DNA from: Syntrophotalea acetylenivorans
GTDB taxonomy: Bacteria > Desulfobacterota > Desulfuromonadia > Desulfuromonadales > Syntrophotaleaceae
Direction: 5' to 3'
Length of the DNA stretch: 64,000 nt
NCBI RefSeq assembly: GCF_001887775.1
Contig: NZ_CP015519.1
Span: 372,001-436,000 of the forward strand
The notes beneath the pieces were generated by a model. It did not search any database. It had not been told where the DNA came from and saw only the letters and a list, made by a program, of their open reading frames with translations. The position numbers and the translations under genes were made by a program. How positions within the stretch are numbered: the first letter of the stretch is position 1; each line of letters opens with the position of its first letter. This document shows positions 54,841 through 60,593 of the stretch, piece by piece.

Positions 54841-55917
54841 TGTCGGGTCCCAGATGATTCCATCAGCAGAAAAAGCTTCCCGTTGTTCCTAGCTCGGGAT
54901 ATGCTTTTTGACATTCTCTGCTGTGAAATCTGAAGGAGTCCGACATGACGATTCGGTTACACGCGAACGCAACGACAACACCTAGGATACGACGCTATAT
55001 CCAACAGTCCCAAAAGACGGATAAAGCCTTGGCCAAAGAGCTGGGTATCTCTATTGATACGGTTCGTCGTTGGCGAAAGCGCGACGACGTTCATGACCGT
55101 TCTCATACGGCTCACAGGCTGAATACGACTCTGAGCAAAGCCCAGGAAGCTGTTGTTGTCGAACTGCGGCGATCTTTGCTCCTATCCCTGGATGATCTGC
55201 TGGTGGTCACCCGGGAATTTATCAATGCCGACGTTTCCCGCGCAGGACTGGACCGCTGTCTACGCCGGCATGGTATTTCTCGATTGGCCGATCTGATCCC
55301 CCAAGAGGAAACGGCCAAAGACAAACCCAAGACTTTTAAAAACTACGACCCGGGTTTCGTTCATGTCGACATCAAGTACCTGCCGCAAATGCCGGATGAA
55401 ACTTCACGGCGGTACCTGTTTGTGGCCATCGACCGCGCCAGCCGCTGGGTCTACTTGGAGCTGCGCAAAAGCAAGTCGTCCCAAGCCGCTACGGGTTTTC
55501 TAAACCGTCTGGTAAACAAAGCTCCGTTTGTGATCCGCAAACTGCTGACCGACAACGATAAGGCCTTCACGGATCGTTTTAGCACTGCCGGCGAGCGAAA
55601 GCCGACGGGAAAGCATATATTTGACCAAGCCTGTGTGCGACACGGTATCGAGCATCGGCTGATTCCACCCCGTCGCCCTCAGACCAATGGCATGGTGGAG
55701 CGTTTCAATGGCCGCATCAGCGAGGTGCTGGCAACGACCAGGTTCAATTCCGCTGAAGACCTGGAACAAACCATGCTGCGTTATGGGTATTTATACAATC
55801 AGCATATCCCCCAGCGGGCCTTGGAACATAAAACCCCGGTAGAGGCTCTAAAACAGTGGCAAAAAAGGAAGCCGGAACTTTTCCATAAACAGGTCAGGAA
55901 TCATGCGGGACCTGACA
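54841..55917 (+). mobile_element. IS481-family insertion sequence, 1077 bp
   Basis: Terminal inverted repeats begin TGTCGGGTCCCAGATGATTC on the left and, on the reverse strand, TGTCAGGTCCCGCATGATTC on the right (three mismatches in 21). A single DDE transposase fills the element. A 6-bp duplication flanks it, as known for IS481 (NCTAGN). It lies inside the fusion outer-membrane gene, in opposite orientation to it. Confidence 0.95.
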
Positions 55918-55922
55918 CCTAA
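54945..55922 (+). CDS. IS481-family transposase
   Basis: A 325-residue DDE transposase. An N-terminal helix-turn-helix (KALAKELGISIDTVRRWRKR) is followed by the rve integrase core: Asp in FVHVDIKYLP (near 141), Asp in LLTDNDKAF (near 202) and Glu in NGMVERFNGR (near 251). GGAG precedes the ATG. The last sense codon straddles the element end and the TAA stop lies in the target duplication. The gene looks intact, so the element may still be active. Confidence 0.95.
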   Translation: MTIRLHANATTTPRIRRYIQQSQKTDKALAKELGISIDTVRRWRKRDDVHDRSHTAHRLNTTLSKAQEAVVVELRRSLLLSLDDLLVVTREFINADVSRAGLDRCLRRHGISRLADLIPQEETAKDKPKTFKNYDPGFVHVDIKYLPQMPDETSRRYLFVAIDRASRWVYLELRKSKSSQAATGFLNRLVNKAPFVIRKLLTDNDKAFTDRFSTAGERKPTGKHIFDQACVRHGIEHRLIPPRRPQTNGMVERFNGRISEVLATTRFNSAEDLEQTMLRYGYLYNQHIPQRALEHKTPVEALKQWQKRKPELFHKQVRNHAGPDT

Positions 55923-57837: not shown

Positions 57838-57957
57838 TTAGGCGATGAAGATTACTGCGAAATACATTGACGATATAAAATTAAAGAGATATAAAAAAGC
57901 GGTATAAATGCTTCATTATCCTTTTACCGTTGTGGCGTGCCTGTGTGAAAGGTCGCA

Positions 57958-58143
57958 TTGACCAAACGTGCCACTTGCCAAACTTTCCGGCACTCCTTCG
58001 CCACCCATTTGCTTGAGAATGGCTATGACATAAGAACCGTCCAGGAGTTACTAGGGCACAATGACGTCAAAACGACGATGATTTACATCCATGTCTTAAA
58101 CCGTGGTGCAGCAGGTGTTCGGAGTCCTGTTGACGGGCTTTGA
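57958..58143 (+). pseudogene. C-terminal fragment of an integron-type tyrosine recombinase
   Basis: Only the last ~60 residues remain: [29 protein letters not shown]-like sequence (Arg-x-x-His box, LLGH and the catalytic Tyr in MIYIHV), then [15 protein letters not shown], a tail typical of IntI integrases. A TGA in frame four codons before the TTG at 57958 shows it cannot be a full gene. It is a degraded remnant. Confidence 0.8.
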
Positions 58144-58634
58144 TTGGCCTCACGTTGTTTCGTTATGCGGATCCGTCTATGCCGCCTTAATAATTTTTGT
58201 GAGCTGCAAATTTAGCTGAAAAAAATAACAAAATATACAAAAAGCCGTTTTTTAAAAAATTGGTTAGATGGGCCTTAAACCACATTTCGGGAGCTTATAA
58301 GGATCCGTCCATTTACTGTTAGGCAGCTCGACTCTGGAGCATCGCTGAAATGGCCAATTCTAAACTCATCTTTTTGATTCTTTGGTTGTTGGACTCAATT
58401 CCAAACAAAAAAAGCTCTTGGCCTATTTTTACATTTTTGCAATTGCATCTTTTGTATGTTTTGTAGGTGTCCTTTTAACGATCTGAAAAAGCCTAACCAT
58501 AAAATCAAGCGGACTGGGTGATACGGCGGCGATTCGCGTAAAGGTCTCTGCTTTTTTGAAAGGTCTTGGTGCCAGCCGCTTATCACTATCGTTATGGTAA
58601 ATCGCAACGTGTAGCGCCAGTTTTATCCAACACG
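58144..58634. other. Non-coding region downstream of the integrase fragment
   Basis: No convincing ORF. An AT-rich part (58190-58262) is followed by integron-core-like heptamers GTTAGAT (58263) and GTTAGGC (58318), and GGATCCGTC occurs at 58169 and 58301. No convincing attC hairpin was found. Confidence 0.4.
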
Positions 58635-58725
58635 AAAGAGCCTGATGTTTTCGCTGAGTTTTCCCTCTTTTTAAGCAGGCTTTCAGCGTACATCAGGCTC
58701 TTTCCTTAAGTGCCTTTGGAAAAGT
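58635..58725. repeat. 91-nt hairpin element, copy 1
   Basis: A 14-bp perfect outer stem (58635-58648 with 58690-58703), an inner CGCTGA/TCAGCG stem and a conserved tail GTGCCTTTGGAAAAGT. It lies downstream of the minus-strand protease gene, so it may be its terminator or 3' RNA structure. Confidence 0.75.
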
Positions 58726-58761
58726 CTTTCCTATGGCACCCGCCCATCTGGTTAAACAAAA

Positions 58762-59901
58762 CTATTCTCCATCGATGGTTACGCCAAATCGGTCGAGCAC
58801 CGCGTCGATGGGGTTGGCTACGGTTATGGTCGTGCTGCCGGCAAAGAGCAGGCCGACCGGTTTGCGCTCATCCGCCTTGGTTCTGCCTTTGCCGACCGCC
58901 ACCACCAGAGACCCCGAATCGCCGCCGGCACTGAAGCCACCAGGTTCAATAATGATCTGGTTGACGAAGCGGGCCGTGCCGCTGTCGTAACCGACGTTGA
59001 CCGTGGCGTTTATGGCGGTGATAATGCCGCTGGTCAAGCCGGTGGTGCGGCCGTACTTTTTGACCTTGAGATTGACGCGCGGAGCCAGGGTGGACGATTT
59101 GGGGGTGCCATAACCATCGCAGGGCGTGTTGTTGCTGAGAAGATCTTGCGCGGATTCGGCAAGGGCTGCATCGATGATGTTGCCGGCCGAAGCGGAAAAG
59201 ACGATCTCTTCAAAATCGTGCAGGGTGCCGATCTCATCACCGTCGATGAGGGTTCCGTTGGGGCCTATGCTTCCGCCGTCGAAGGCCCCGGGTTGCAGAA
59301 TTTCGTCGTTATAGGAGGCGAGATTTTCATCGGCATAGACGTGGTTGTTGCTCAAAGCGTAAACGTTGGTACCATCCGTGACCCGGGCGCCAATGGTACC
59401 GGCGGTGATGGCCGGATGCCCGGTGGATACGCCGATCGGTACCGCGCGATCAAATGGGGCTGCGGGGTCCACGTCACACACAGTGCTGGTGTCATCTTCG
59501 CCGGGGGTGGCGGGGATACCGCCTTTTTTCAGAGCGGTAATTTTACCGGTGATTTTAACCGCTACCGGCTGGCCGTCCAGTACGGCAGGTATGTGTGCTG
59601 CACGGGCACTATGGAACGACTCCACCAGCACCAGCACCGCCGGCTGGCCATGTGCAGACAGCCCGGTGGCGGTACCGACCACACCAGGCTCACCCATGAG
59701 CTTTTCGGTGTGCCGGTTTTGCACCGCCATGACCGCTTTGATGGCCGGATGGTTCTGGTCAAAGACCACCGTCGCCTGCTCTGGAAGGTCTAAATTCTCT
59801 GGGCCTAACGCCATCGCTCCGCCAGCAGAGAAAAGCAGCGTAAGAAGAAATGTCATCAGGCTGAACGAATACGTTGCGTAGCGGGTAATCGGGTTTCTCA
59901 T
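58762..59901 (-). CDS. Secreted trypsin-like serine protease
   Basis: A 379-residue exported protein with an N-terminal signal peptide (hydrophobic FSLMTFLLTLLFSAGGAMA, cleavage near residue 31). The chymotrypsin-fold triad is visible: His187 in ALSNNHVYA, Asp244 in NIIDAALAE, Ser329 in SAGGDSGSLV. Substrate unknown. The ATG at 59901 follows AAAGGAAA; earlier in-frame ATGs run through the leader hairpins and are unlikely. The gene has a long structured leader and is bracketed by two related 91-nt hairpin elements. Confidence 0.85.
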   Translation of the reverse strand: MRNPITRYATYSFSLMTFLLTLLFSAGGAMALGPENLDLPEQATVVFDQNHPAIKAVMAVQNRHTEKLMGEPGVVGTATGLSAHGQPAVLVLVESFHSARAAHIPAVLDGQPVAVKITGKITALKKGGIPATPGEDDTSTVCDVDPAAPFDRAVPIGVSTGHPAITAGTIGARVTDGTNVYALSNNHVYADENLASYNDEILQPGAFDGGSIGPNGTLIDGDEIGTLHDFEEIVFSASAGNIIDAALAESAQDLLSNNTPCDGYGTPKSSTLAPRVNLKVKKYGRTTGLTSGIITAINATVNVGYDSGTARFVNQIIIEPGGFSAGGDSGSLVVAVGKGRTKADERKPVGLLFAGSTTITVANPIDAVLDRFGVTIDGE

Positions 59902-59934
59902 GGCCCATTTCCTTTCACTGCTTGTCATTAAACT

Positions 59935-59978
59935 AAAAAAGCCGAGCTTTTCGAAAGTACCTCTTTCGGAAGCTCGGC
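59935..59978 (-). terminator. Terminator hairpin in the protease leader
   Basis: On the minus strand GCCGAGCTT pairs with AAGCTCGGC, with an inner CGAAAG/CTTTCG, followed by six T, 34 bases before the start codon of the protease. Confidence 0.85.
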
Positions 59979-60129
59979 CATCTTCAAACTGAAGATCCGT
60001 TGCTTGCTGCTCCCCCTCATGATGCGACGGGGTGAGCATTGCCAGGAGATCCTTTCAGTGGATGTAATTCATTGGTTGGAGGCCTCTTCATTGTTTGAAT
60101 AGTGAGATCTTTTAACTCTATGTTTTATA
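59979..60129 (-). promoter_or_regulatory. Structured 5' leader, candidate riboswitch or attenuator
   Basis: Reading on the minus strand, ACTGAA-(2 nt)-GATC (60048-60059) can pair with GATCTTCAGT (59988-59997), enclosing a stem GCTC(A)CCCC/GGGG(G)GAGC (60029-60037 with 60009-60016). The 3' strand of the outer stem can alternatively form ATCTTCA/TGAAGAT (59980-59996). A terminator follows. No known riboswitch consensus was recognised. Confidence 0.5.
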
Positions 60130-60157
60130 AACATAAACGCTCGGTATCGGGTGTCAA
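60130..60157 (-). promoter_or_regulatory. Candidate promoter of the protease leader transcript
   Basis: Minus-strand TTGACA (60152-60157), a 16-base spacer and TATGTT (60130-60135). A perfect palindrome ATGTTTTATAAACAT (60120-60134) overlaps the -10 and could be an operator. Confidence 0.55.
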
Positions 60158-60247
60158 GCAGAGTCGCGGTTAGGATTGGTAAATGTCACCAAGAACAGGG
60201 GGTGAGGTCTTTGTTCTCGTTCAATAGTAGCCCCCTTCCTCAATGCA

Positions 60248-60338
60248 AAAGAGCCTGATGTTTTCGCCGAGTTTTCCTCTTTTTCAAGGAGGTTCTCTGC
60301 GCTCATCAGGCTCTTTCCCCCGGTGCCTTTGGAAAAGT
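60248..60338. repeat. 91-nt hairpin element, copy 2
   Basis: A 13-bp outer stem (60248-60260 with 60304-60316), inner CTCTGCG/CGCCGAG-type stem and the same tail GTGCCTTTGGAAAAGT as copy 1. It lies downstream of the minus-strand yheU unit. The following 60339-60593 shows no gene or site. Confidence 0.75.
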
Positions 60339-60593
60339 ATTTGTCCTTTTCCTTGTGCTATGCACATCGAGTTGATCTGTTGCTTTTCCGATGTGGGAGC
60401 GGGGGTGCATAGGCTCCACAGGTTTGGAGGTTTTTAGTCTCTTTACCTTTTTTCTTATCGACTGGTCGTTTGTTCTGCCGACAATGCGATTAGAGTAGAA
60501 CCTATGATTCAATACTACATCTGAGATTGAGAAATGCAACCTCCCTTTCGCGTTTTAATTTGTTAATTTATGTCGATAAATTAGACAGTTGCC

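Follow-up and report, generated by a model that had tools for sequence, protein, structure and literature searches.

What are the two similar hairpins that lie on either side of a protease-like gene in Syntrophotalea acetylenivorans? Our window, a stretch of 64,000 nt (contig NZ_CP015519.1, positions 372,001 to 436,000, forward strand), had been the subject of a preliminary description, which placed a 91-nt element at 58635-58725 (copy 1) and another at 60248-60338 (copy 2) in the same orientation, and proposed that they were a structured 3' RNA, a terminator family or a small mobile repeat. The coordinates are confirmed. The two elements share 86% identity across 91 nt (E = 1.2e-22 in a whole-genome BLAST), and the outer stem said to be shared is a perfect 13-bp helix in both. 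On either strand, the fold of each copy beats all 200 shuffles, with z values of -7.4 (+) and -6.5 (-) for copy 1 and -5.05 (+) and -4.0 (-) for copy 2. BLAST with copy 1 (E ≤ 0.001) finds these two copies and nothing else in the 3.2-Mb genome.

Other parts of that description do not hold. The change in the inner stem, from CGCTGA/TCAGCG to CGCAGAG/CTCGGCG, had been called compensatory; read on the minus strand, the fourth pair is T-A in copy 1 and an A.G mismatch in copy 2. Nor is 91 nt the length of the unit, as the copy 2 hairpin forms the 3' part of a conserved unit of ~260 nt that runs from 60506 to 60247 on the minus strand. The two hairpins are real, yet they are fragments of something larger (Table 1), which is very probably a conserved RNA gene, judging by the comparisons below. 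A conserved end hairpin can look like a small repeat if the remainder of the RNA gene goes unrecognised.

Table 1. Features at the RNA and protease locus, in window positions
Feature	Position	Strand	Basis
Copy 1, putative truncated paralogue keeping P7 and part of P6; boundaries approximate	58628..58729	-	81% identity to copy 2 over 102 nt; model match
Protease-like gene with Nal1_C domain, between both copies	58762..59901	-	Pfam PF25819, E 1e-6, 28.6 bits (cut-off 26.1)
Full-length structured RNA gene (copy 2)	60247..60506	-	Covariance model 259.8 bits, model 1-259 (copy 2 itself in model); homologues in 10/14 family genomes; identity falls on both sides
Putative promoter: TTGCAT (60539..60534), 16-nt spacer, TAGTAT (60517..60512)	60512..60539	-	Fixed position in homologues
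5' domain: helix P1 (60506-60494 with 60420-60408) closing hairpins P2 and P3	60408..60506	-	MFE folds of four homologues; both-sides changes
Middle domain: helix P4, CCCCCG/CGGGGG (60405-60400 with 60322-60317), closing hairpins P5 and P6	60317..60405	-	MFE folds
P7, the hairpin first described in copy 2: AAAGAGCCTGATG..CATCAGGCTCTTT, then T; probable intrinsic terminator	60248..60316	-

Boundaries of the proposed RNA gene

When the flanks of the homologues are aligned, conservation is seen to continue, in the minus-strand sense, for ~190 nt upstream of the hairpin and then into a promoter-like stretch. To quantify this, the window's genus was compared to the other genera, using ten full copies with each segment aligned separately and copy 1 (w1), G003a and G004 left out. 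Mean identity is 34, 32 and 31% for the three upstream segments (70 nt each), rises to 57, 62, 70, 62 and 86% along the five that cover promoter to hairpin, and drops again to 34 and 30% for the two that follow; the profile has gaps of 35 nt ahead of the promoter and 10 nt past the hairpin. By this measure, the block of conservation has sharp edges.

In all ten full copies, the pattern TTGNNN-16/17-TANNNT ends 7 nt before the start of the conserved RNA. Across copies, these hexamers share 3-4 of 6 and 4-5 of 6 letters with the consensus, which is a weak match, and those of the window, with 3 of 6 and 4 of 6 letters, are not listed by a consensus promoter scan; it is because they hold a fixed position in divergent copies that we regard them as a putative promoter. 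Given the position of TAGTAT, transcription is expected to start near 60505, which would place the 5' end of the RNA there. At the other end, P7 has a 13-pair stem and is directly followed by T4 in 10/10 full copies, and the 3' end of the RNA probably lies at this tract. A terminator scan does not list P7, probably since it allows only loops of 3-8. The predicted RNA length is ~249-260 nt. The model that we propose is of a structured, stand-alone sRNA of ~260 nt, which would be read from the minus strand, start at a sigma-70-like promoter of its own and terminate at P7.

Is the unit instead protein-coding? The RNA does contain stop-to-stop frames of 48-84 codons. However, gaps of 1-2 nt account for 231 of the 287 pairwise gap runs and, as judged by eye, the frames disagree across genera. 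The dominance of these short gaps, together with the disagreement of frames, argues against coding, although a small ORF is possible. Comparison with known RNA families was negative. Against Rfam (4227 families), 60235-60560 gives three matches at E ≤ 10, with 9.7-14 bits versus gathering scores of 80-120, and seven homologue loci give one match at E ≤ 0.5, of 17.6 bits and outside the RNA. 6S RNA (RF00013) was considered and rejected, as two other loci of the genome exceed the 6S cut-off (1249372-1249554, 65.3 bits, and 942636-942816, 53.3 bits, both on C1 of G000, the window's genome), while the RNA described here reaches no Rfam family. tmRNA was likewise rejected, since the window contains no tRNA or tmRNA according to ARAGORN. 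G+C content of the window is 50-53%.

Fold and covariation

Minimum free energy folds of copy 2 (w2), G006, G005 and G012, each computed from a single sequence, show a common layout of two branched domains and a terminal hairpin, with z values of -8.1, -7.4, -6.5 and -8.5, respectively; the G005 fold departs in the detail of P4-P6. In an alignment of 11 sequences (the ten full copies plus the partial copy of G004), 753 of 814 cells (92.5%) are paired over 77 pairs. Nineteen of the 77 pairs are changed on both sides, compared to 10.0 in shuffles, none of 500 of which reaches 19, and to at most 10 in slid controls. One caveat here is that the structure was derived (RNAalifold, RIBOSUM scoring) from the same alignment on which it is scored, which gives it an advantage in the slid control. 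In an earlier run of RNAalifold, for which the alignment was shorter and did not include the 5' strand of P1, just 6 of 58 pairs had both-sides changes and the covariation term was only -0.4.

The both-sides changes are distributed unevenly, with 7 in P1, 8 in P2, 1 in P3, 1 in P4, 2 in P6 and none in P5 or P7. Fifteen of the 19 therefore fall in P1 and P2, helices that were absent from the preliminary description. Covariation had been proposed there as the check on the hairpin; it is present, mainly in the 5' domain, and absent from the hairpin itself, where none of the 25 pairs (13+6+6) is changed on both sides among the ten full copies. The conserved RNA structure expected of a stand-alone sRNA gene is found here. 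On the plus strand, too, the region has a good fold (z = -5.4). G.U cells outnumber A.C cells, 71 to 19, and the minus strand pairs 753 cells where its complement would pair 701. We assign the RNA to the minus strand on the basis of this G.U excess, the putative promoter and T4.

Distribution

With copy 1 as the query, matches among 58 genomes occur in G000 and eight others, all of the window's family; one 19-nt match in another family (E = 0.006) was taken as chance. A 248-nt query of 40 genomes adds G004, where the copy is cut by a contig end, and four more matches of 18-25 nt (E = 0.03-0.09), which we also attribute to chance. A covariance model search of the order (136 genomes, 14 candidates scored per genome, strict filters) matches 10 genomes, all in the window's family, and scoring 50 candidates in each of forty relatives recovers the same ten carriers. 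In a sample of the phylum, only G000 matches among 395 genomes, with 5 candidates scored per genome, such that remote or diverged copies may have escaped; the sensitivity of the order search was limited as well. Altogether, 10 of 14 genomes of one Desulfuromonadales family, probably Syntrophotalea and its relatives, have the RNA: ten copies are full, one is truncated by a contig end and two are degenerate. Nine other genomes of the family thus carry the RNA, which removes the possibility that these are just two copies made by a simple local duplication.

For G001, G009 and G010, no model match was seen at E ≤ 5 under laxer filters (150 candidates scored). A match of 27.9 bits in G007 was rejected: large parts of the model are skipped, what aligns is A-rich sequence and an unrelated terminator-like stem, and antisense matches at known loci also score 21-29 bits. 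The G001 contig begins 363 bases before the helicase, and the RNA locus may simply be unassembled in this genome. G010, a 99% complete genome from a genus that includes several carriers, seems to lack the RNA (150 of its 959 candidates scored).

A scan for the exact palindrome identified three named carriers, all confirmed by cmsearch: Desulfuromonas sp. CSMB_57, MAG DJKA54_ANT-KO_bin.13 and MAG 42485_Bin_1. The first of these groups with Syntrophotalea in a passage of a published study (PMC9484754). Two viral contigs bearing the palindrome have no model match at E ≤ 1, and of two Sphingomonadales/Novosphingobium loci, one (L018) scores 21.0 bits, within the noise range, and the other (L019) has no match; both were rejected. 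Collections of phage (50,697 records) and plasmids (72,556 records) contain no match by blastn at E ≤ 0.01. Genome G008 holds two full-length copies of the RNA 16 kb apart (C18:104274-104527 and 120310-120564), each with promoter-like hexamers, and one of them may have a divergent role.

The second copy and the protease locus

Copy 1 lacks the 5' domain. It matches the model from position 100 only (100-258), with 67.7 bits. It lies 59 nt beyond the stop codon of the protease-like gene and is followed by T3 only. By our reading, that gene starts at the ATG at 59901 and encodes a signal peptide; we take Nal1 to be a serine protease. The order RNA-protease-RNA' recurs in G003, where the protease is 87% identical over 409 residues and the second copy (G003a) is degenerate, with 138.6 bits over model positions 1-259 and an internal gap. 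A degenerate 5' half is still present in G003a, and the second copy was therefore probably a complete duplicate at first. These comparisons suggest that a local duplication around the protease predates the split of the G000 and G003 species, and that the second copy is probably decaying in both. In the 3'-terminal ~108 nt, w2 shares 92% identity with G003a and 79% with G003b, whereas G003b is 91% identical to G002; exchange between copies is therefore likely. Copy 1 would then be a truncated paralogue that arose by local duplication and may now serve as a putative terminator of the protease gene.

Several other elements lie in the vicinity. Before the protease start, on the minus strand, a c-di-GMP-I-GGC (GEMM type) riboswitch-like element at 59964-60046 scores 27.7 bits, below the gathering score of 59, and is followed by a hairpin and a T-run. 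A weak promoter-like site for the protease occurs at 60157-60130, one of 3 such sites found versus 1.8 expected. The C-terminal remnant of an integron integrase (TIGR02249, E = 1.3e-32) is located at 57949-58140 (+), and the same locus of G002 contains an intact integron integrase (L022 8272-9270, E = 6.3e-143). Further away, an IS481-family transposase at 54945-55922 (+) lies between a 109-aa ORF, which has no Pfam match and may be the start of MipA, and a MipA-OmpA ORF, whose MipA match lacks the first 39 profile positions. The transposase may have split one outer-membrane protein gene.

Gene neighbourhood and alternative origins

We compared the genes around the RNA across carriers, with neighbouring ORFs picked mechanically and named mostly by reading. 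In G000 and G003, the protease lies downstream of the RNA on the same strand. Downstream of the RNA in G002 is an opposite-strand ORF with weak pilin-type matches, followed by the integron integrase. A sensor kinase-like ORF follows the RNA copy G008a, and a same-strand ORF follows that of G005. Downstream ORFs are on the opposite strand for G002, G006, G008b, G011, G012 and G013. A helicase that we read as RhlE is found a few kb upstream in G000, G002, G004, G008 and G012, while a 50-residue helicase query has no match in 6 of 11 genomes (G005, G006, G007, G009, G010 and G011). Adenylosuccinate lyase lies downstream in G000, G002 and G011. The shared RhlE and adenylosuccinate lyase flanks suggest vertical inheritance in part of the family.

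These neighbourhoods bear on whether the RNA could be a cis-acting leader (riboswitch or attenuator) of a protease operon, with P7 as the regulated terminator. The same-strand position directly upstream of the protease in G000 and G003, and the terminator-like hairpin at the end of the RNA, would fit such a leader. However, no constant class of downstream gene is found, the next ORF being different in other genomes and on the opposite strand for six copies, and the protease of the window has its own promoter-like site, albeit weak, and its own riboswitch-like leader, albeit below the Rfam cut-off. We consider a cis-acting leader highly improbable. We place even less weight on a dispersed repeat or terminator family, or a small mobile element of the REP or MITE type. 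Two related copies do occur in each of the window, G003 and G008, and the hairpin is nearly symmetric, but many dispersed copies were not found: carrier genomes have just one or two, several of them share flanking genes, phage and plasmid collections are silent, and the hairpin is embedded in a 260-nt unit that has conserved promoter hexamers and a 5' domain with covariation. The mobile repeat of the preliminary description is better explained as the end of one stand-alone RNA gene. Its structured 3' RNA or terminator fares better, in that the hairpin does end a conserved RNA and copy 1 does follow the protease; the evidence points away from a dispersed terminator family.

Another possibility concerns the second copy only and is compatible with an RNA gene. 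The duplicate could be an attachment-site repeat, left when a small element integrated at the 3' end of the RNA gene with the involvement of the nearby integron integrase. A full gene on one side and a 3' fragment on the other, in equal orientation, would be expected from such an event, and integrase sequences are present, as the remnant in the window and as the intact gene of G002, which sits between the RNA and adenylosuccinate lyase. The degenerate 5' half of G003a points instead to an originally whole duplicate, and no attC-like core was noticed in the hairpin by eye. We judge this origin unlikely. Taken as a whole, and leaving aside the manner in which the RNA acts, a stand-alone RNA gene accompanied by a truncated paralogue is probably the correct reading of the locus.

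Possible modes of action

Predicting what this RNA gene does is less straightforward. The exclusion of other explanations, together with the anatomy of the RNA, leads us to favour a trans-acting regulatory RNA that would pair with mRNAs, possibly with Hfq; this is the most likely of the predicted actions, although we put it forward tentatively. Hfq is encoded in 5/5 and ProQ in 0/5 of the genomes tested. CCUCC motifs, which are complementary to ribosome-binding sites, number 1-2 per RNA, a count reached by 2 to 62 of 200 shuffles depending on the copy. They are partly paired within the fold, and give a weak hint of predicted pairing with mRNA starts. No conserved open pairing seed stands out in the RNA.

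The main alternative, ranking next, is a protein-binding or structural RNA, acting by titration or as a scaffold rather than by pairing with mRNA. The large fold is consistent with this, as is the strong conservation of P7 in sequence, which might be seen in a protein site. For CsrA in particular, the evidence is against: each RNA has 3-7 GGA motifs, 86-189 of 200 shuffles have at least as many, and a CsrA sponge was rejected. For the ANGGA form, an excess is suggested at most in G003b, whose 4 motifs are matched or exceeded by 15 of 200 shuffles. We regard action through a bound protein as somewhat unlikely. A quite unlikely mechanism, lower still in our estimation, is that this lineage-specific, two-domain RNA might be a molecular switch, its two folds alternating on binding of a ligand or protein. 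In such a scheme, the invariant UAUGCAC, comprising the 3' side of P1 and the linker to P4, could pair with the largely unpaired GUGCAUAG after P5, and one fold alone would expose the pairing sites. In the alternative helix CUAUGCAC/GUGCAUAG, 81 of 88 cells pair, and the 7 broken ones lie at one pair (4) and at two others (2 and 1). One pair is changed on both sides, and all of these measures are reached by at least 250 of 500 shuffles. If it did switch, the RNA would represent a free-standing regulated RNA of a new family.

Irrespective of mechanism, the sequence comparisons point to a new and apparently uncatalogued RNA family of the stand-alone sRNA type. Literature searches by words returned no title or abstract start that describes the RNA, an unnamed RNA being hard to find in this way, and surfaced no small RNA studies in the Pelobacter/Syntrophotalea group. 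The P. carbinolicus genome paper (PMC3543383) lists multicopy sequences in its supplement. Our analysis would add a large structured RNA to this group of organisms, syntrophic partners of methanogens, and the putative promoter, boundaries and fold are defined well enough for immediate testing.

Comparison with known RNAs

How does this RNA compare to those of known type? 6S RNA is of a similar size class and is also intergenic, but its shape is that of one bulged rod, in contrast to the two branched domains seen here. CsrA sponges of the CsrB/RsmZ type are alike in length class and in having a terminal hairpin; GGA motifs in our RNA occur at chance level. The match to GEMM/c-di-GMP-I riboswitches adjoins the RNA gene, before the protease, and is separate from it. 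Compared to Hfq-associated trans-acting sRNAs, the RNA is larger and more branched than most, and its U-tract is short (U4). Yet it resembles these sRNAs in its promoter-like site, its intergenic location, its terminator-like 3' hairpin with a U-tract, and the presence of an hfq gene in the genome.
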